Positions 2,277 through 12,092 of a stretch of DNA of 41,088 bases are shown one piece after another. Within the stretch, counting starts at the first letter, position 1; each line of letters opens with the position of its first letter. A program made the position numbers and the translations under genes. A model generated the notes under the pieces. That model ran no database searches, was not told the DNA's origin, and saw nothing but the letters and a program-made list of their open reading frames with translations. This DNA is from Campylobacterales bacterium (GTDB lineage Bacteria > Campylobacterota > Campylobacteria > Campylobacterales > Nitratiruptoraceae), in assembly GCA_027065825.1 (NCBI GenBank), contig JAMONM010000049.1, positions 1 through 41,088 on the forward strand, in the 5' to 3' direction.

Positions 2277-5200
2277 ATGTTTTTAGAAAGCAGAAGAAAT
2301 TTTTTAAAAGGTACCGCGGCTACGGTCGCAACCGCAGTGGCCGCTAAGGGAGTCTTTTCGGTAATCGCCGAAACTCCTGCCGAAGCGGCTGCTACCGCAG
2401 GATTTACCGATACTCCCAAAACTTTGCAGTTTTATCCGCCGCTGAGCGAATGGGACGATTTCAAAGAGCTCGACGGCGAAGACTGGAAAAGAGGCGGGAT
2501 ATCCAGAAAAGGTGTGCAGACTCCGGAAAATCCCGACGGAATCAGAGTCAACGATTACGTAATAGTTCCCACCGTGTGCAGCAACTGCGAAGCCGGTTGC
2601 GGTCTGACGGCCTGGGTGGACAAAAACAGTTTGACGGTGAAAAAGTATATGGGAAACCCTCTCCATAGCGCCTCCAGGGGAAGAAACTGCGCCAAAGGGT
2701 ACGGAACCTGGTCTCAGATGTACGATCCGGATCGGATACCTTTCCCGCTAAAGCGTGCTCCCGGCAGCAAGAGAGGAGAGGGCAAATGGGTAAGAGTTAC
2801 TTGGGACGAAGCCATGAAAGATATCGGCCAAAAGCTCTCTTCTATGCTGAAAAAGGGCGACGAGATAAGCAAAAAGATGTTTATTTATCACGTAGGCCGT
2901 CCGAACGAGAACGGTTTTGGAAACAGAATCCCGCATACTCTGGGCGTTGACGGATACGACTCTCATACGAATATATGCAGCGCCGGCGCTAGACAGGGTT
3001 CTATCCAGTGGGCCAACGACGACAGGAACTCTCCGGATTGGGCAAACGCTAAACTGATATTTTTACAATCCTCTCACGCGGCGGATGCCGGACACTATTT
3101 TCAGCAGAGCGCGGGTTTGATAGCCGACGCTAGAAAGCGGGGAGCCAAAATGGTGGTTATCGATCCCAGGCTGTCGAATTCTGCTGGTATGGCCGATCTG
3201 TGGATTCCGGCATGGCCCGGCACCGAAGCGGCTCTTTATCTATATCTGGCCAATAGAATTTTGAACGAAAAGGGCAAAAACGGAGAGGATCTGATAGATC
3301 ACGAATTCGTCAAAAACTGGATCAACTGGAAAAAGTTGATGAAGGATAAAGAGTATCTCAAGCTGATGCTCGATAGAAAATATATCTCAAAAATGCCTTC
3401 TGATGAGAGTTACGAGAGCTTTATAGAGATGCTAAGAGAGCTGTACGCCCCCTATAATCTCGATTTTGTCGTTAGAGAGTGCAGACTCGAAGGCCAAGAA
3501 TACAAACTTGAGAAGCTTTTTGAGATGGTGGTGGATGCGGAGGATAAAATAGCCACTTATATGTGGAGGGCCGGAACGATAGGGCACAGAGGCGGATGGA
3601 TGAATACAAGAAGCGCCTTTTTGGTTCTGGCTCTCAGGGGAGCTCTCAGGGGCGACGTAGGAGGAACCAGTTGGCACCACTGGCACAAGGCCAGCGTAAA
3701 CGGAAAATGGTTCGATGCCGTAGAGAGCGACGGGAAAAAGCCGCCTAAAGTCGAGGTTTGGAACGAGTATCCATGGCCGCCAGAATATCCTCTGGCCACC
3801 TACGAGCTCAGCTTTTTGCTGCCCCATCTGTTGATGGACGAGGAGTGGAAGGAAAAATGGAGAAAGAGGGGATTCAAGATTCCGGACAAATTGGCGGTAT
3901 GGGTTCCCAGGATGTACAATCCGGTCTGGATAAATCCGGACGGTTTTAGATGGATAGAGTGCTTAAAGCGCGAAGATCTGATGGAGCTGACGTTTAATCT
4001 CTCTCCCACCTGGAGCGAAACAAACTGGTACTGCGACTATGTGCTGCCTACCGGACTGGCTGGAGAGAGGCACGATCAGCAGAGCGAACCTTCAAAACCG
4101 GAAAAGTGGGTGGCGTTTAGGCAGCCCGCTTTGAGAGTGGCGCTGGAAAAGATGGGATGGAAACCGAAAGATCCCACCAGAGCCACGCTGGAAGCCCATA
4201 TGAAAGCCGGTCTGGGAGAGATATGGGAAGAGGTGGAATTTTGGGCCAACCTGATAGTCAAATACGTGGATCCCGACGGTAGTTTGGGCATCAAGAAATA
4301 TTGGGCCAGCAAGGAGGATCCGAGCCGCCCGGTTACGATACCTGAATTCTATCAGGCGGCATTTTCTCTGCTGCCGAATCTAAAGCGCGCGGCTGAGGCT
4401 GCGTATCCGAACAGCAAATATCCCTGTTACGAATTTATGAGAGACAGGGGAGCCTTTACCGAGGAGACCAATATCTACAAGCCTCAGGAGGAAGAGGTAG
4501 AATTTGACGGTGAATATTACAGGGTTCACGGACACAGATACCACAAAAGCGAAGTCATCAAAGACGACGAGGGCGTCTTGTGGGTGGAGTCCAAAGGGCA
4601 TAGAAAATCGATCGGCGTAGAGATTGACGGTAAAGTGTACCAAGGATTCCATACGCCGGATAAGAGGCTCGACTTTTTCGTAGACTGGTTAAAAGAGTAT
4701 CAGTGGGCCGAATACGCTATTCCTATTTATCCTAGAAACGAAAACGAGCGAAAAGAGATGATCCATCTGGTTACCCACGTCCATCACGACTATATGAGGG
4801 CGGATAACGAGTTCGCTCTGAATACGATTTACAGACTTCCTTATATGATACATACCAGAAGCGTCAACTCCAAACATCTAATGGAGATTAGCGTCAACCA
4901 CAACCCGGTCTGGATACATACCAGCGACGCAAAAAGACTCGGGTTGAAAAGAGGAGACAAGATAAAGGTCAGGATAGTCGATACCGTAAGCGGTTTAGAG
5001 AGCGGATATTTCATAGCTATGGCTGTACCAACCGAAGCCACCAGACCGGGAGTGTTGGCGTGCAGCCACCATGCCGGTAGATGGAAACTCAAAAACGCGG
5101 TAGAGATTCCGGGCTTTGAACACAAGCTGGGCGTCATGGGTGTCGGAGCGCCTCTGTACGAGATGAGCATGGACGGCAAAGTGGCCAAAATGAGAGCCAA

Positions 5201-5591
5201 AGAGGGTATAAAAGAGGGCGTGTTAAAAAGAGAGGAGAGCTGGCAGTTTAAAAATATCAACAAGGATTTGGACAACATCTGGTGGGACGGTTTGACCGGA
5301 GCCTGGCAAAACGCGGTTGCGCCGGTTCATCCCGATCCGATCGCCGGAAACCACGCATGGCATCAAAAGGTTATAATAGAGAAGGCCGGCGCGGAGGATA
5401 GGCTGGGAGACGTATACGTCAACTACGAGAACAATTTTAAAACCTATCAGGCTTGGAGGGATAAACTGACCAGGCCTCTAAACGAAAAGATAAAATACAG
5501 ACGCCCTATGCATATGCCAAGACCCGCCGTTCCACTCAGTGAAAAAGCCTATTTGAACCCTATGTACAAATCGGACCATGAAGAGGCGTAG
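2277..5591 (+). CDS. Tat-exported molybdopterin oxidoreductase, large catalytic subunit (Ttr/Srd/Psr-like)
   Basis: 1104 residues. The N-terminus carries a twin-arginine signal (SRRNFLKG, residues 5-12, followed by an Ala-rich stretch to about residue 40). C101, C104, C108 and C138 form the N-terminal [4Fe-4S] site (CxxCxxxC...C). C234, in the motif SHTNICSAGAR, is the probable molybdenum-coordinating residue. The usual bis-MGD signatures follow (YVLPTGLAGERHDQQ region; C-terminal cofactor-cap domain with HNPVWIHTSDAKRLGLKRGD). At about 1100 residues it is far longer than PsrA or PhsA (roughly 750) and nearer TtrA. The operon contains the partner B and C subunits, and a TorD-type chaperone lies downstream. 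A periplasmic reductase of a sulfur or metalloid oxyanion is inferred. Tetrathionate, polysulfide/sulfur, selenate and arsenate remain possible. Confidence 0.88.
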   Translation: MFLESRRNFLKGTAATVATAVAAKGVFSVIAETPAEAAATAGFTDTPKTLQFYPPLSEWDDFKELDGEDWKRGGISRKGVQTPENPDGIRVNDYVIVPTVCSNCEAGCGLTAWVDKNSLTVKKYMGNPLHSASRGRNCAKGYGTWSQMYDPDRIPFPLKRAPGSKRGEGKWVRVTWDEAMKDIGQKLSSMLKKGDEISKKMFIYHVGRPNENGFGNRIPHTLGVDGYDSHTNICSAGARQGSIQWANDDRNSPDWANAKLIFLQSSHAADAGHYFQQSAGLIADARKRGAKMVVIDPRLSNSAGMADLWIPAWPGTEAALYLYLANRILNEKGKNGEDLIDHEFVKNWINWKKLMKDKEYLKLMLDRKYISKMPSDESYESFIEMLRELYAPYNLDFVVRECRLEGQEYKLEKLFEMVVDAEDKIATYMWRAGTIGHRGGWMNTRSAFLVLALRGALRGDVGGTSWHHWHKASVNGKWFDAVESDGKKPPKVEVWNEYPWPPEYPLATYELSFLLPHLLMDEEWKEKWRKRGFKIPDKLAVWVPRMYNPVWINPDGFRWIECLKREDLMELTFNLSPTWSETNWYCDYVLPTGLAGERHDQQSEPSKPEKWVAFRQPALRVALEKMGWKPKDPTRATLEAHMKAGLGEIWEEVEFWANLIVKYVDPDGSLGIKKYWASKEDPSRPVTIPEFYQAAFSLLPNLKRAAEAAYPNSKYPCYEFMRDRGAFTEETNIYKPQEEEVEFDGEYYRVHGHRYHKSEVIKDDEGVLWVESKGHRKSIGVEIDGKVYQGFHTPDKRLDFFVDWLKEYQWAEYAIPIYPRNENERKEMIHLVTHVHHDYMRADNEFALNTIYRLPYMIHTRSVNSKHLMEISVNHNPVWIHTSDAKRLGLKRGDKIKVRIVDTVSGLESGYFIAMAVPTEATRPGVLACSHHAGRWKLKNAVEIPGFEHKLGVMGVGAPLYEMSMDGKVAKMRAKEGIKEGVLKREESWQFKNINKDLDNIWWDGLTGAWQNAVAPVHPDPIAGNHAWHQKVIIEKAGAEDRLGDVYVNYENNFKTYQAWRDKLTRPLNEKIKYRRPMHMPRPAVPLSEKAYLNPMYKSDHEEA

Positions 5592-5605
5592 GCCTCTTCA
5601 CATGG
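5576..5605. terminator. Bidirectional hairpin between convergent genes
   Basis: CCATGAAGAGGC (5576-5587) pairs over 12 bp with the right arm at 5592-5605, with a two-base bulge (5600-5601) and a GTAG loop. It contains the stop codon of the molybdopterin subunit (plus strand) and the stop codon of the convergent cytochrome (minus strand). No T-tract follows on either side. Confidence 0.6.
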
Positions 5606-5939
5606 CGTCGCTGAGATCGTACTCTTCGTAATATCTTTTTGGGCTCTCTTTGAGAGTGGAGAGATACTCGGCGACCGCTTTTATCTCTTCGTCGCTTAGC
5701 GATTTTGCGAAGGGTTTCATCATATCGGCTCTGTATGAATTTATCGTACCGTTTTTGTAGCCGTTCAGTCTGTTTAATAGATAGTCGTAGCTTTTGGAAG
5801 CCAAAGATGGATAGTCTCCGTTCCCTTTTGCGTCTATTCCGTGACAGCCGTAACAGCCGTAGGAGGTGTAGACCTTTTGACCGTCTGCGGCAAAAAAGTG
5901 GGTTATAATTACAAAAAGAAGTGGGACTGCGATTTTCAT
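5598..5939 (-). CDS. Small periplasmic class I cytochrome c
   Basis: 113 residues with an N-terminal signal peptide (hydrophobic residues 4-17). A single haem-binding CYGCH motif lies at residues 29-33, and a candidate axial Met (M73 or M74) in the ADMMKPFAKSLSDEE context is followed by the C-terminal helix ending EYLSTLKE, the normal layout of a mono-haem class I cytochrome c of the c553 type. It is transcribed toward the reductase gene, sharing the hairpin at 5576-5605, and divergently from the TorD-like gene. It may be an electron carrier for this or another respiratory chain; the location suggests but does not show a link with the reductase. A TATAAT on the minus strand at 5978-5973 lies 33 bases before its start. 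Confidence 0.88.
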   Translation of the reverse strand: MKIAVPLLFVIITHFFAADGQKVYTSYGCYGCHGIDAKGNGDYPSLASKSYDYLLNRLNGYKNGTINSYRADMMKPFAKSLSDEEIKAVAEYLSTLKESPKRYYEEYDLSDAM

Positions 5940-5994
5940 GGCCGTCTCCGAAAAAAAAGATTTACTGCAATAATTATATACAAAAGAGGTCTAT
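5940..5994. promoter_or_regulatory. Compact divergent promoter region (cytochrome / TorD-like operon)
   Basis: These 55 bases separate two divergent start codons. The stretch 5971-5980 (TAATTATATA) gives a perfect minus-strand TATAAT (5978-5973) for the cytochrome and a plausible plus-strand -10 (TTATAT) for the chaperone operon. The two transcripts would compete for almost the same bases. AGAGG at 5985-5989 is the ribosome site of the plus-strand gene. Confidence 0.45.
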
Positions 5995-6603
5995 ATGGAT
6001 ATAACCGGACAAAGAGCTGGCCTTTACGCGCTGATTTCGAGGATTTTTCTATCCGAGATGGATCCCGATACTCTTTCGGCTATCGAAGGTATGGAGAGCT
6101 TCAACACATTTTTTCCCGACTACAGCCGATGGGATATCAGAAACATAACCGATAGAAAAACGCTTGTAGAGCGTTATTTGAACGTTGATTACACGGATAT
6201 AGCGATTATGCATCTGATTCCCTATGAGAGCTTTTATACCACCGAAGAGGCCATGATCGAAACCGGGGGCGCAAATCCGGTGGTTTCCGTCTACAACGAA
6301 TACGGCTATCGAGTCGACCTGGATAGAGCAAGAGTGGTGAGTCCCGATCATATAGGGGTGGAGCTGGAGTTTATGAAGATTTTGTGCGAGGCCCAACAAA
6401 AAGCTGAAAAAGCCGAGGATGAAAAGGCCGCCGTCGATATCAAAGAGATAGAGAGAGGATTTTTAAAGGATCATCTACTCAGGTTTGCTCCCATGTATCT
6501 TATTAATGTGGCTGAACAGGCCAGGACGCCCTTTTACAAGGACGCGGCGAAAGTGGCTTTGGAGTTTTTGCTGGAAGATTACGAATATCTATCTGGAAGA
6601 TGA
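5995..6603 (+). CDS. TorD/DmsD-family molybdoenzyme chaperone
   Basis: A 202-residue, all-helical protein without signal peptide. Size and landmarks fit the TorD family: an N-terminal helix with RAGLYALISRIFL, a central Y-E-S-F segment (residues about 76-80) where family members often read P-Y-E/aromatic, a D-H-L-x-R-F-A-P segment (about 158-165) and the terminal helix beginning TPFYKDAAKVALEFL. Such proteins bind the Tat leader of a molybdopterin enzyme and hold the apoprotein for cofactor insertion. The only visible client is the subunit encoded at 2277-5591. AGAGG precedes the ATG by five bases. The stop overlaps the next start (ATGA), so it is co-translated with the ferredoxin gene. Confidence 0.85.
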   Translation: MDITGQRAGLYALISRIFLSEMDPDTLSAIEGMESFNTFFPDYSRWDIRNITDRKTLVERYLNVDYTDIAIMHLIPYESFYTTEEAMIETGGANPVVSVYNEYGYRVDLDRARVVSPDHIGVELEFMKILCEAQQKAEKAEDEKAAVDIKEIERGFLKDHLLRFAPMYLINVAEQARTPFYKDAAKVALEFLLEDYEYLSGR

Positions 6604-7616
6604 GCGTGAAAATTTCTCTCGATAGCTCTTTGTGCGTCAGATACGCCTCCAAATTCAGCGGGTGCGACTCGTGTCAAAAGGCGTGCCCGATAGAGGTTAT
6701 AGATATAAACGAAAGCCGCGTGGACATTGACGTCTTTTCCTGTATAGGTTGCGGAGTATGCGCCGGCGCGTGTCCCACGGAGGCCATAAGGGTAAGTGAA
6801 ACGGAGATATACGAGAAGGTTTTTGAGCTGATCTCCTCCAAAGAGAGCGTGATAGGATGTAGATACAACTTTTTCTGTTTGGCGGCTATAAACGGAGAGT
6901 ATCTGGCTACGATGGCTCTTGTAAACGATATCGTTTTGGATGTCGGTTTTTGCAAGGAGTGCGAAATCAAAGAGGAGTGTTACGATAGAATCTTGAATAA
7001 CGTAAGCGAAGCGGATTACATCCTGCAAGCCCTGGGCGTAAACGCAAAGATCGAACTTAAAGATCTCAAAAAGGTTTCCGATATCTCAAAAGAGAGACGG
7101 GAACTGTTTTCGTCTTTCGCCTTTGGCAAATACGCCGACAAGGAGGCGCAAAACGGATCTTTCAAAAGAGAGAAGATCCCCCCAAAGAGACGGCGGCTCT
7201 TTTTGGCGGTTTTGAAGCAGTTGGGTATAGAGGGATCCAGCAAGCTATTGGAGTCGAAATATCTCGGTTTTTTCAGCGACAAGAGTATTGACGACAGCTG
7301 CGACAACTGCTCCGTATGTTATAGAGTCTGCCCCACGGACGCCCTATCTTTCGGTTCGACAGGGGAGATACTTTTTGATGCGGCTTTTTGCGTCAGATGC
7401 GCGCTCTGTCACGATGTCTGCGAGAAAGAGAGCGTAAAAATGGAGGAGTTTTTCGATTTCGAATCGGTTACGGCCAAAGAGCCGAAAGTTCTAAAAAGAT
7501 TTAAAATGGCTATATGCGATGAATGTTCGAACCCTTTTGCCTCTATCTCCGGAGAGAGGGTTTGCCGCAGATGCCGTATCGAAGAGGAGGAGGCGAAAAC
7601 TTTATGGGGATTGTAA
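6600..7616 (+). CDS. Multi-cluster 4Fe-4S ferredoxin-type protein with C-terminal CxxC pairs
   Basis: 338 residues, no signal peptide or membrane segment. Four ferredoxin-like groups: C12/C22/C25/C29, C48/C51/C54/C58, C234/C237/C240/C244 and C264/C267/C270/C274, arranged as two pairs. Between them (residues 87-127) lies a domain with C87, C93, C118, C121 and C127. The C-terminus has C306/C309 and C322/C325, spaced like a zinc ribbon. Similar polyferredoxins sit beside formate dehydrogenase and other molybdoenzyme operons, so a cytoplasmic role in electron supply or maturation is inferred. Its start overlaps the TorD-like stop by four bases (ATGA). The first group is irregular (CxxxxxxxxxCxxCxxxC), with an enlarged first gap. 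The exact partner is unknown. Confidence 0.8.
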   Translation: MSVKISLDSSLCVRYASKFSGCDSCQKACPIEVIDINESRVDIDVFSCIGCGVCAGACPTEAIRVSETEIYEKVFELISSKESVIGCRYNFFCLAAINGEYLATMALVNDIVLDVGFCKECEIKEECYDRILNNVSEADYILQALGVNAKIELKDLKKVSDISKERRELFSSFAFGKYADKEAQNGSFKREKIPPKRRRLFLAVLKQLGIEGSSKLLESKYLGFFSDKSIDDSCDNCSVCYRVCPTDALSFGSTGEILFDAAFCVRCALCHDVCEKESVKMEEFFDFESVTAKEPKVLKRFKMAICDECSNPFASISGERVCRRCRIEEEEAKTLWGL

Positions 7617-8427: not shown

Positions 8428-8431
8428 GACT
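8413..8431. terminator. Bidirectional hairpin between convergent genes
   Basis: AGTCTC (8413-8418) pairs with GAGACT (8426-8431) around a seven-base loop. The plus-strand stop (8425-8427) and part of the minus-strand pgpA stop (8431-8433) overlap the right side. Read on the minus strand, the stem is followed by four T. It is a modest terminator candidate. Confidence 0.5.
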
Positions 8432-8892
8432 TAAAAGTTGGAATAGATCAGATAAATTATACCGGTAGACAAAGAGGCTACGACTCCGGCTAGCAGATCG
8501 TCGGCCATTACAGCCCAGCCGCCTTTTAATCTCTTTTCGGCTTTGCCTATCAAAGAGGGCTTTGTTATATCGAATATCCTAAACAGAACAAAGAGTACGG
8601 CTATCCAGATCAGCGTAGGTTCAGGAAGAAAGCTCATACCGACCCAAATACCGGCTATTTCGTCTATTACTATACTTTTATCGTCGTGAGCGCCTCCCTC
8701 TTTTTCGAATCTGTCGATCTCTTTTACGGCTATCACTGTTACCAAAACGGCCAGCATGAACAGCGTCGATTGAGGTAGATACACCAAAACCAGCACTCCC
8801 AAAAAGGCTCCAAAGAGAGTGCCCCAGGTTCCCGGCGCCTCTTTTATCAGCCCGAAGTAGCATCCGGTCAAAAAGCATCTTCTAATATTCAT
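8431..8892 (-). CDS. pgpA: Phosphatidylglycerophosphatase A
   Basis: 153 residues, the normal PgpA length. The signature GLIKEAPGTWGTLFG near the N-terminus and DEIAGIWVGM in the middle are the conserved PgpA motifs, and several hydrophobic helices are membrane segments. The enzyme removes phosphate from phosphatidylglycerol phosphate at the inner membrane to give phosphatidylglycerol. AAGGG lies 6 bases before the ATG. It is last in the ispDF operon, eight bases after the Sat-like gene. In C. jejuni the same neighbour follows Cj1609, as I recall that map. Confidence 0.92.
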   Translation of the reverse strand: MNIRRCFLTGCYFGLIKEAPGTWGTLFGAFLGVLVLVYLPQSTLFMLAVLVTVIAVKEIDRFEKEGGAHDDKSIVIDEIAGIWVGMSFLPEPTLIWIAVLFVLFRIFDITKPSLIGKAEKRLKGGWAVMADDLLAGVVASLSTGIIYLIYSNF

Positions 8893-8900
8893 ATACGCCC

Positions 8901-10091
8901 TTATGTCAACGATGTTGTCTGGTAAAGTTTCATCAGTTCGATATAAAAATCCTTTTCGCTATGTTCTTCCATAATACCCGAAAAGGGTATAAAGTTGTAG
9001 TATAGCTTTTCCAGATTTTTAAACCTGGCCGGAAAGAGTTCGCTCAAAATTATGGCGCTGATCTCCTTTCTGACCAGAACCGCCGGCGGCAAAATGCCCA
9101 GTTTGAACAGCTCCATTATCGATTCGCTGTGGTAGGATATGTGGTGATGGCTTCCGTGCGGGCAGGTGTTTGTGCTCACAAGGGTTTTGCACTCGTTGCA
9201 GTAGACAAACTCGCTGATAGTCTCTATTTCGATATTTATACCCTTTATGGTATCGAATACGCTTTTGATCGAGTTTTTGTCGTAATATAGACCAACTCCC
9301 GCATGGTTTTTTCCTATAACGAGCCTGTTGCAACCAAAATTCTGAGCGACTATAGCATCGAGTATCACCTCGTTGAATCCGGCGAAAATGTAGGTGTTTT
9401 CGAGCGGAACGACCAGCACTCTGTTTTTGGGTAGAAAGTTTTTTACGAAATAGTCCATGACTTTGTATCGTACCTCGTACGAGAGACAGTCTCTGGAGTA
9501 GGGTTTGAGTAGAAAAATCACCACTAGATCGCTCTTTTCCAGAGTTAGTCTGATCAACCTTTCGTGGGCTCTGTGAAAAGGTTTGGCCGCCATCATGATA
9601 GCCGTGACGTTTTTGGCTCCTATGGCTTTTTTCGCCTCCTTTATCCGCTCTTTGGTAACAGAAATCTGGTCGAACTCGACTCTGTATTCTCCGCTAATGG
9701 CGTATTGTCCCAGTCTCTTTAGCGTTTCAGTCACTCCCGGATGGCTCATGTCGTCGGTGCCGTATATCTTTTTTACCCTCTCTTTGGGATCTATTTTAAA
9801 AACCTCTTCGCACCTGATCTCGCCTACTTTTTTTTGGTCCACCACCAGATCCAGAGTCTCCCCTTTTTTGCACTCTTTTAGTATCTTTTCGTTCTTTTTC
9901 CCTCCAGGTGCGAGAATGAAGGAAAAGGGAAATGTTTTATTATGATATATTCCGGTTTTGTCTACCTCGTCGGCCTCTTTTTTGTTCATCAAGCCTTTGA
10001 CAGGACTCAGGATGCCTTCTTTGGCCAGAGCCAGCGTGGCCAGTGCCTCTTTGTCGATAAATAGCGCTCTATTTTTTCTTGAAGATTTCAT
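8901..10091 (-). CDS. ATP-sulfurylase (Sat)-like protein with altered substrate motifs
   Basis: 396 residues with the Sat layout: N-terminal PUA-like domain, then a nucleotidyltransferase domain. HRAHE (173-177) and a GKNHAG version (260-265) of GRDHAG are kept, as are cysteines like those of zinc-containing bacterial Sat (C298, C301, C310 with H312). However, the QTRN motif before HRAHE, whose Gln and Arg contact substrate in characterised sulfurylases, reads MAAK (167-170), and the usual GTKVR segment before the final proline pair reads YHSESIM (320-326). The fold is clear, while sulfate activation is doubtful. It starts inside the end of the HP1021-like gene (23-base overlap). It probably corresponds to Cj1609 of C. 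jejuni. Alternatives: a Sat with shifted contacts, or a different adenylyltransferase. Confidence 0.8.
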   Translation of the reverse strand: MKSSRKNRALFIDKEALATLALAKEGILSPVKGLMNKKEADEVDKTGIYHNKTFPFSFILAPGGKKNEKILKECKKGETLDLVVDQKKVGEIRCEEVFKIDPKERVKKIYGTDDMSHPGVTETLKRLGQYAISGEYRVEFDQISVTKERIKEAKKAIGAKNVTAIMMAAKPFHRAHERLIRLTLEKSDLVVIFLLKPYSRDCLSYEVRYKVMDYFVKNFLPKNRVLVVPLENTYIFAGFNEVILDAIVAQNFGCNRLVIGKNHAGVGLYYDKNSIKSVFDTIKGINIEIETISEFVYCNECKTLVSTNTCPHGSHHHISYHSESIMELFKLGILPPAVLVRKEISAIILSELFPARFKNLEKLYYNFIPFSGIMEEHSEKDFYIELMKLYQTTSLT

Positions 10092-10959
10092 ATTTTTTCC
10101 TCTTTTCCCAAAGGCTCTTTCTGGAAATGCCGAGTTTTTTGGCCAGAGCCGTATCGGGGAATTTGTTTTGGTAGTTTAATATGATGTATTTGACGTAATC
10201 GTCTATGGAGAGGATATCGTTTCTGTCGAATATTTTATTGTCGCTTTTGATTTCGATGCTGTTTATCGGAATCTCTTCTTCTAGGGAGTCGGTGGTAGAG
10301 ACAAGGGCGCTTTTGTTTTCGATCGTCTCCATAAAGAGTCTTCTTTCGCTCTTTTTCAATACCTGAAAATCAGTTATATAAAGTAGCTGGGACTCCTTTT
10401 CGTTTTTTATGGCGTTTATGGCGCCGCTTTCGCTCAGGGAGTAGAATTTAAAGGGCTCTTTTACCCTCTTTGAAAATTCAAAAGCGAAAAAGTCCGCGTA
10501 TTTTTGGTAATTTGTTTTTATCAGGAGAGGGAGTTTCACTTTAGTGTTGAGATTTTCTATATTGATGCCTTTTAACGAAAAAGATAGATATCTTTTAAAG
10601 CTTTCGTTTTCTTTTTTGATCTGTTCGAATTCTCGAAAATGGTCTATTTTTCTGATGAGCTCCTCCATCATAAAAGGCTTTAGGATATAGTCTTTGGCTC
10701 CGGCTCTGAGAGGATTCGAGACGGTGTCGTTGCTGATATACGATACCAGCAGTATTATTATAGAATCGTTATAGTGTTCTATAATAGGATAGAAATCCTG
10801 TCCGTTGATGTTGGTGGAGAGCAAAACCGCGTCGTAGTGCTCATCTTTGATCGCCTCCTTGACGGTTGCCGCCACTTCGCAGATATGACCGATTTCGGCT
10901 AGTTTGGCGGCGATACTCTGGGCGAGATAGATCTCGTTTTCAACTATTAATATTTTCAT
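10069..10959 (-). CDS. HP1021/Cj1608-type orphan atypical response regulator
   Basis: 296 residues: a receiver-like domain (1-115), a linker and a C-terminal Fis-type helix-turn-helix (DTALAKKLGISRKSLWEKRKK, about 266-286). The receiver lacks the phosphoacceptor: the aspartate position in the LLDxxLPG segment is S48 (VLLSTNING), and the acidic pair reads E7-N8. The conserved Lys is retained (ILKPF). This is the pattern of HP1021 of Helicobacter and Cj1608 of Campylobacter, regulators described as phosphorylation-independent, redox-responsive and involved at oriC and in metabolism. Only one cysteine (C27) is seen in the receiver, fewer than in HP1021. It overlaps ispDF by four bases (ATGA) and shares the operon with the Sat-like gene, matching Campylobacter gene order. 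Confidence 0.85.
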   Translation of the reverse strand: MKILIVENEIYLAQSIAAKLAEIGHICEVAATVKEAIKDEHYDAVLLSTNINGQDFYPIIEHYNDSIIILLVSYISNDTVSNPLRAGAKDYILKPFMMEELIRKIDHFREFEQIKKENESFKRYLSFSLKGINIENLNTKVKLPLLIKTNYQKYADFFAFEFSKRVKEPFKFYSLSESGAINAIKNEKESQLLYITDFQVLKKSERRLFMETIENKSALVSTTDSLEEEIPINSIEIKSDNKIFDRNDILSIDDYVKYIILNYQNKFPDTALAKKLGISRKSLWEKRKKYEIFKKK

Positions 10960-12092
10960 GAAACGCTCCCTGCCTCTTTTGTCCAGTCGAAAAACTCCAA
11001 CGAGGCCGTAGCCATGGCGGCAAGACCCTCCTCTCTGCCTATAAATCCCATTTTTTCGGCCGTAGTGGCTTTTATGTTTATAAAAGATCTATCCAGTTCC
11101 AAAATTTCGCACAGCCGTTTTCTGATTTGATTTTTAAAGGGGGAAATTTTGGGTTTTTGGGCTATTATTGTCAGATCCACGTTGTTGATTACAAATCCCA
11201 AAGAGTCCAAAAGCCTCTTTGTTTTTGCCAGTAAAACGGCAGAATCGGCGCCTTTGTAGCTATCGTCGCTATCTGGAAACAGTTCTCCGATGTCTCCCAG
11301 CCCGGCCGCTCCCAAAAGGGCGTCTATAATCGCGTGTATGGCCGCGTCGGCGTCGGAATGACCGGCCAGTCCGTACTCTTCGCTGACCTTTACCCCTCCT
11401 AGAAACATTTTAGAGTCGCTCTGATACGGATGGACGTCAAATCCGCTTCCGCACATGGTTATCTTTGCCGGCGGCTCCAGGCAGGATAGCTTGTTTATGT
11501 CCTCGGCGGTAGTTAATTTGTGATAATCGGGACTCCCTTTTATATAGACGACTCTGCCTCCCGCTTTTAGTATCGCGCCGCTTTCGTCGGTGGATTCGGG
11601 AAAGCTTTTTAGAGCCTTTGTCAACGTATCGGTTTTTGAGAGCTGTGGCGTCTGTATCAGTTTTACTTCGTCTCGGTTTACTGTTTCGTTTTTATACACA
11701 ACGGTGTCGTGAACCTTTATATAAGGCGCCGCGCAGTCTGCTTCGCCTATACTATCTATTATTTTTTCGACCATCTCTTTTTTTATGCAGGCTCTGGCTA
11801 TATCGCTGACCAGTACGTATGGCGTATCCACCTCTTTTAGCGCGTTTAGCAGCGATTGCGTTCTGCTTTTTCCTCCCTCGACAAAAGTGTGATCGGAAAG
11901 TTTTTGCATGAATCGGATCTCATCCTTATGAGCTACTATTAAAACTTTTTTGAAATGGTAAAAGGAATCAAAACGATTCGTAACATATAGCCAAAGCGGC
12001 TTTTTACCGACCCTGAGCCACTGTTTTTTTACTTTTAGCCCGAATCTGCTAGACTCGCCTGCACCAAGTAACACCAGAGATAAATCAGACAA
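10956..12092 (-). CDS. ispDF: Bifunctional IspD/IspF of the MEP isoprenoid pathway
   Basis: 378 residues joining two enzymes. Residues 1-205 are the cytidylyltransferase IspD (GAGESSRFG at 10-18, KKQW at 22-25), which makes CDP-methylerythritol. Residues 213-378 are the cyclase IspF: D219 and H221 in GFDVHPY and H253 in GHSDADAAIH are the metal ligands, in the same spacing as D8/H10/H42 of E. coli. The fusion skips IspE, as in Campylobacter and Helicobacter. It is the first gene of a minus-strand operon; a perfect TATAAT lies 31 bases upstream, with an HP1021-type box between it and the gene. Confidence 0.96.
   Translation of the reverse strand: MSDLSLVLLGAGESSRFGLKVKKQWLRVGKKPLWLYVTNRFDSFYHFKKVLIVAHKDEIRFMQKLSDHTFVEGGKSRTQSLLNALKEVDTPYVLVSDIARACIKKEMVEKIIDSIGEADCAAPYIKVHDTVVYKNETVNRDEVKLIQTPQLSKTDTLTKALKSFPESTDESGAILKAGGRVVYIKGSPDYHKLTTAEDINKLSCLEPPAKITMCGSGFDVHPYQSDSKMFLGGVKVSEEYGLAGHSDADAAIHAIIDALLGAAGLGDIGELFPDSDDSYKGADSAVLLAKTKRLLDSLGFVINNVDLTIIAQKPKISPFKNQIRKRLCEILELDRSFINIKATTAEKMGFIGREEGLAAMATASLEFFDWTKEAGSVS

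Follow-up and report, generated by a model that had tools for sequence, protein, structure and literature searches.

Does a protein with the fold of an ATP sulfurylase (Sat) also have to activate sulfate? The question is raised by a sat-like gene on the minus strand (8901..10091) of the 41,088-nucleotide Campylobacterales sequence analyzed here, referred to throughout as the window. The open reading frame runs from an ATG start at 10091 to 8901 and encodes a protein of 396 amino acids, for which we coined the label SatL and in which a PUA_2 and ATP-sulfurylase fold is combined with a remodelled active site. The protein carries the Pfam domains PF14306 (PUA-like, PUA_2; 61 bits) and PF01747 (ATP-sulfurylase; 202 bits), and it scores 144 bits against the NCBIfam Sat model TIGR00339 (cut-off, 323) and 192 bits against NF003166 (cut-off, 387), in both cases less than half of the curated cut-off. 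An AlphaFold model of SatL (window protein and 38 relatives) has a pLDDT of 86 and a pTM of 0.85. Its best 33 PDB matches are all Sat-fold chains, either ATP sulfurylases or fused Sat/APS-kinase proteins (TM of 0.62 to 0.76 by query length), with CoaD and NMNAT coming next, and the nearest solved structures are the ATP sulfurylases 8A8D from Methanothermococcus and 1V47 from Thermus (TM of 0.72 to 0.86, by query or target length). SatL has in common with these enzymes the fold, the domain order, the HxxH motif, the Cys3His zinc site, and most of the Gly/His ribose contact.

The active site, in contrast, has been altered. In the Sat from Allochromatium, sulfate is bound by Gln199, Arg201, and the backbone of Ala299; the alpha-phosphate by Thr200, Arg201-NH, and Asn202; the ribose by Gly295, Arg296-O, and His298; and the pyrophosphate by Asn202, His205, His208, and Arg365 (PMC3779200). 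At the position of the QxRN loop, which contacts sulfate and the alpha-phosphate (roles as in PMC3779200), the window protein has MAAK (codons 167 to 170; 9582..9593, minus strand, as for all motifs below), followed by HRAHE (codons 173 to 177; 9561..9575), in which the HxxH nucleotidyltransferase signature is kept. The GRDHAG position is occupied by GKNHAG (codons 260 to 265; 9297..9314) and that of the pyrophosphate-binding SGTxxR motif by HSESIM (codons 321 to 326; 9114..9131), so that residues 320 to 326 read YHSESIM. Furthermore, the GxxKxxD loop of Sat is altered and an arginine, R208, has been gained. The segment CNECKTLVSTNTCPHGSHHH (codons 298 to 317; 9141..9200) retains the Sat zinc cluster (C298, C301, C310, and H312), after which come three new and nearly invariant histidines, H315 to H317, and the protein ends in a tail that true Sats do not have (residues 369 to 396; 8904..8987), with its FY and QTxSL elements conserved. 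A first-pass annotation of this DNA had described a Sat-fold protein with MAAK in place of QTRN and YHSESIM at 320 to 326, and all of these motifs were found where it had placed them. Its statement that HRAHE and GxxHAG are kept is correct for the former; for the latter, the frame is preserved, but the Arg and Asp of GRD within it have become Lys and Asn.

The same changes run through the 92 distinct SatL sequences that we read, all of which belong to one clade. The sulfate-binding Gln or Arg of QxRN is kept in none of the 92, the Arg of GRD in only 5, and the Arg of SGTxxR is absent from at least 85% of the members. The residue equivalent to Asn202 is K, N, D, or R, and the other listed contacts are gone save for the histidines of HxxH (the second, H176, in 92/92 and the first, H173, in 87/92) and, in most members, the ribose-contacting Gly and His (H263 in 85/92). 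In 14 true Sats, from Thermus, Deinococcus, Bacillus, Sulfobacillus, and Campylobacter and relatives, by contrast, there is little or no variation at the Gln, Thr, and Arg of QxRN, at the Arg and Asp of GRD, or at the Thr and Arg of SGTxxR, and when the SatL substitutions at these three motifs were sought in these enzymes, as the first-pass annotation had proposed, none of the 14 had them.

SatL has also gained features of its own. R178, R208, the histidines H315-H316-H317 after the inherited zinc site, and Y320 are new and nearly invariant; at K196, 83 of the 92 sequences have K or R; the cluster CxxC...CPHGxHHHxxY is shared; and the C-terminal FY...QTxSL tail is conserved across SatL and present in no true Sat. 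Values of dN/dS range from 0.015 to 0.09 in five of eight close pairs (dS being saturated in the other three), and SatL is at least as conserved as its neighbours ispDF and pgpA. The remodelled pocket has thus been fixed under strong purifying selection and the gene is not decaying, and the recurrence of one pattern in 92 distinct homologues with low dN/dS excludes chance or sequencing error. SatL is a lineage in which all of the sulfate-holding residues of Sat have been lost across the Campylobacter phylum and a fixed set of its own gained.

A scan of bacterial genomes returned 42 loci, in Nitratiruptor, Sulfurospirillum, Campylobacter, and other Campylobacterota, and a phylum-wide genome sample yielded only the window's own order. 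A PF01747 protein scoring above the cut-off is encoded in 306 of 397 genomes of the class, one of which has a true Sat only. SatL-type proteins are present in approximately 305 of the 397, a count that takes matches left unread as SatL-type and that is supported by the scores, as true Sats reach 249 to 281 bits, whereas no other match in the list exceeds 209. In a maximum-likelihood tree, a long branch with support of 100/100 sets all SatL proteins apart, and the true Sats of Campylobacter group with other Sats, far from SatL. Five Campylobacterota genomes have two PF01747 matches, and one of each pair is a true Sat; the second protein was SatL-like where checked, by sequence in one genome (G216) and by score in another (G120). 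The best match in a plasmid search, from Sulfurovum mangrovi, is a SatL that is annotated as a sulfate adenylyltransferase, and the seven other matches that were read are true Sats.

A role of SatL in sulfate assimilation was considered and rejected. On another contig of the window genome, CysH, CysD, a CysN-like GTPase, and sulfite reductase are encoded in a row; an APS kinase was looked for in this genome, and none was found. Across the class, SatL and CysH (match at E < 1e-30) are anticorrelated, with 52 genomes having both, 253 SatL without CysH, 37 CysH only, and 55 neither (odds ratio of 0.31; as the genomes are not independent of one another, the p-value serves as an indication only). 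The proposal that this lineage may not activate sulfate is very probably right, given the loss of the pocket side chains other than the HxxH histidines, and it gains from the presence of CysDN in the same genome, the lack of an APS/PAPS reductase in most carriers, and the coexistence of true Sats with SatL in some genomes. We are confident that SatL is something other than an ordinary sulfate adenylyltransferase, and very probably it does a different job.

True Sats with QTRN were seen in some genomes of the Campylobacter family (L045, L046/L075, L047, L048, and L049). These proteins share the Pfam family, the phylum, and the zinc cysteines with SatL but have QTRN, GRDHAG, and mostly SGTxIR and are phylogenetically distant from it. 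A pyruvate-kinase-like protein is encoded after the true Sat in L044 to L047 (Pfam-checked in L075), and in L075 an APS kinase precedes the true Sat and a sodium/hydrogen exchanger-type gene lies further down. CysH is absent there, and loci combining a true Sat and an APS kinase may be PAPS-making cassettes for sulfation.

In the window, satL lies between an HP1021-type atypical response regulator gene (10069..10959, minus strand), which overlaps its start by 23 nucleotides, and pgpA (8431..8892, minus strand), the last gene of a conserved operon that begins with ispDF (10956..12092, minus strand). The order ispDF-HP1021-SatL-pgpA was seen in nearly every locus read and across most families of the class, Sulfurovum mangrovi being an annotated example; the SatL gene usually overlaps the end of the HP1021 gene by about 20 nucleotides, and thiC and mrp often diverge upstream. 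The cooperonic arrangement with an HP1021-type regulator reported by the first-pass annotation is thereby borne out. In 10 of 12 sampled SatL-free genomes a full-length HP1021 orthologue is present, and in five genomes having both genes the two are unlinked (G044, G134, G249, G350, and G356). The operon is thus old, yet the regulator does not need SatL. G007 and G117, of family f6, have neither SatL nor a full-length HP1021 orthologue, unlike the other SatL-free genomes. In family f7, probably Arcobacteraceae, SatL is located away from HP1021 (L083, L084, and L085; unlinked SatL in L108), and the unlinked gene is followed by one for a conserved predicted lipoprotein of 125 to 141 amino acids with no Pfam match and by an endonuclease IV-like gene; reading these f7 contexts for functional hints gave no clear clue.

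What, then, might SatL do? Weak matches to generic nucleotidyltransferase families (best E of ~1e-8 to 1e-4) were obtained in one short region. PF08218 matches 35 of 39 SatL proteins and PF01467 matches 10, with no match to either among the 14 true Sats, and TIGR00124 and TIGR00125 match 28 and 10 of the 39, respectively; the window protein itself stays below the family cut-offs (PF08218, 20.8 versus 20.9; TIGR00124, 19.4 versus 262). The predicted model has a Rossmann-like core with an [H/T]xxH motif, and Foldseek matches it to CoaD and NMNAT at E values of ~1e-5. With the C-terminal domain of citrate lyase ligase (PF08218 and TIGR00124) and the PF01467/TIGR00125 families, SatL shares the NPFxxxH region and the next strand but differs from these cytidylyltransferase-like proteins in its Sat-type PUA domain, zinc site, and Sat architecture. 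The ISTTxxR-type triphosphate motif of HxGH nucleotidyltransferases is not found in the window protein, where this segment is HSESIM. In five SatL proteins the first His of HxxH is N or T, giving DPFNxxH or APITxxH. Citrate lyase ligase and CoaD carry Thr at this position, and the first motif of SatL may have reverted to the acceptor-site pattern that is general in the superfamily.

The reading towards which we lean is that SatL is a former ATP sulfurylase that works as a nucleotidyltransferase on an acceptor other than sulfate. SatL would be a repurposed paralogue that retained the PUA-like domain, the HxxH core, the structural zinc site, and most of the ribose Gly/His contact, and whose lost pocket was replaced by a [K/N/D]-P-[F/L]-[H/N/T]-x-x-H motif of generic type, the fixed CPHGxHHHxxY cluster, and a K-P-Y...R motif like that of nucleotidyltransferases of the phosphopantetheine, NMN, and citrate-ligase type. 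The protein would bind a nucleoside triphosphate, probably ATP, transfer or activate through the alpha-phosphate onto a non-sulfate acceptor, and serve a core function kept by most of the class and independent of sulfate assimilation. The fold, the missing sulfate pocket and its fixation by selection, the distribution, and the operon are observed here, and that SatL is catalytic, its nucleotide, and the class of its acceptor are points that we infer; all three triphosphate contacts of Sat (the Arg of GRD and the Thr and Arg of SGT) are altered, so that ATP binding is not guaranteed. The acceptor could be another anion, as the first-pass annotation had suggested, but the generic nucleotidyltransferase features fit an organic phosphate or a carboxylate equally well, and in the reading that we favour one of these two is a likelier acceptor than an inorganic oxyanion. 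More tentatively, SatL may be a nucleotidyltransferase or acyl-adenylate former with a reaction new to the ATP sulfurylase family, which most of the phylum would use for a core step and which would be indispensable in Campylobacter jejuni and Campylobacter coli. The possibility that it stands in for a missing classical nucleotidyltransferase was dismissed, as the genome encodes three PF01467 proteins as well as one of the FAD synthetase type, leaving no obvious gap to fill.

Other explanations have to be weighed against a nucleotidyltransferase. SatL could be a catalytically dead descendant of Sat that senses a ligand or a metal, with the zinc/His cluster and the tail as its functional parts, for example in regulating a partner in response to a nucleotide or a metal. 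Its most invariant columns are indeed C298, C301, C310, P311, H312, G313, H315 to H317, Y320, and the tail; conservation is higher in this cluster and in domain III than in the nucleotide loop, and the triphosphate contacts have been lost. However, SatL inherited the zinc site from Sat, and the conservation of this site is hence no new evidence of sensing, while P171, R174, H176, and E177 vary little or not at all and the first motif has shifted towards the generic nucleotidyltransferase consensus rather than decaying. We consider such a sensor unlikely, and less likely still is some other phosphorus chemistry on the Sat fold, i.e., a nucleotide hydrolase, phosphorylase, or phosphotransferase in which the HHH residues are catalytic or bind a metal. 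To our knowledge, no Sat-fold member has any of these activities, and retention of the HxxH core is typical of nucleotidyl transfer. What speaks for it is that the three added, nearly invariant histidines sit just before the former pyrophosphate site (location as in PMC3779200).

That SatL is a true ATP sulfurylase holding sulfate in some other pocket, or one running in reverse on APS, would agree with the closest structures and HMMs being those of Sat and with the public annotation. We regard it as very improbable, since no sulfate-contacting side chain is left, the NCBIfam scores fall so far short, none of the 14 true Sats shares the substitutions, CysDN is encoded in the same genome, and most SatL carriers are without CysH. 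Even harder to uphold is a signalling partnership with the HP1021-type regulator. The overlapping reading frames and the retention of the operon by most of the class would suit it, but ispDF and pgpA are linked to SatL equally, the regulator is kept where SatL is missing, and the two genes come apart in five genomes; on these last two grounds, the redox signalling with its neighbour that the first-pass annotation had envisaged was not sustained.

In C. jejuni, the gene order Cj1607 (ispDF), Cj1608 (HP1021 family), and Cj1609 has been described (PMC4435418, PMC11334517). The operon position of Cj1609 matches that of SatL, and a Campylobacter locus (L040) has both the operon and the motif. That Cj1609 is a SatL, as the first-pass annotation had thought probable, is thus supported by synteny and such Campylobacter loci. 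Transposon data identified Cj1609 as essential in six strains of C. jejuni and four of C. coli, and it is not listed as essential in all four species tested (PMC10077673). In an earlier study, Cj1607 (ispDF) and Cj1610 (at the pgpA position) were scored essential (PMC3229698), and the Cj1609 result could hence be a polar effect on pgpA. A literature search found no paper characterising Cj1609. If it is truly essential, Campylobacter has an enzyme of unassigned role that is open to direct testing.

Structural work described the substrate site as virtually identical across ATP sulfurylases and the reaction as allowing no substantial variation (PMC3779200); the SatL clade breaks this rule phylum-wide while being strongly constrained. 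The essential-gene survey assigned the Cj1609-type protein to sulfur metabolism (PMC10077673), and a Nautilia proteome paper probably made the same reading (PMC10092268; SatL identity inferred from lineage). Because SatL is annotated and read as a sulfate enzyme, the label misleads inferences from physiology and metagenomes.

It is of note that the STT3/PglB oligosaccharyltransferase co-occurs with SatL (261 genomes with both and 77 with neither; odds ratio of 30). A role in N-glycosylation was not adopted, as SatL occurs in the absence of STT3 in 44 genomes and STT3 in the absence of SatL in 15, and most of the signal is probably a matter of common descent. STT3/PglB was seen within approximately 1 to 20 kb of SatL in several genomes of family f8 (L130 to L133). 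Near the operon in the window, positions 2277 to 7616 contain an open reading frame for a molybdopterin oxidoreductase-like protein (1,104 amino acids) with a twin-arginine-like start, one of 202 amino acids with a TorD-like appearance, and a ferredoxin-like protein; in Sulfurovum mangrovi (L122), an annotated TorD family protein and a 4Fe-4S dicluster protein are likewise encoded near SatL.
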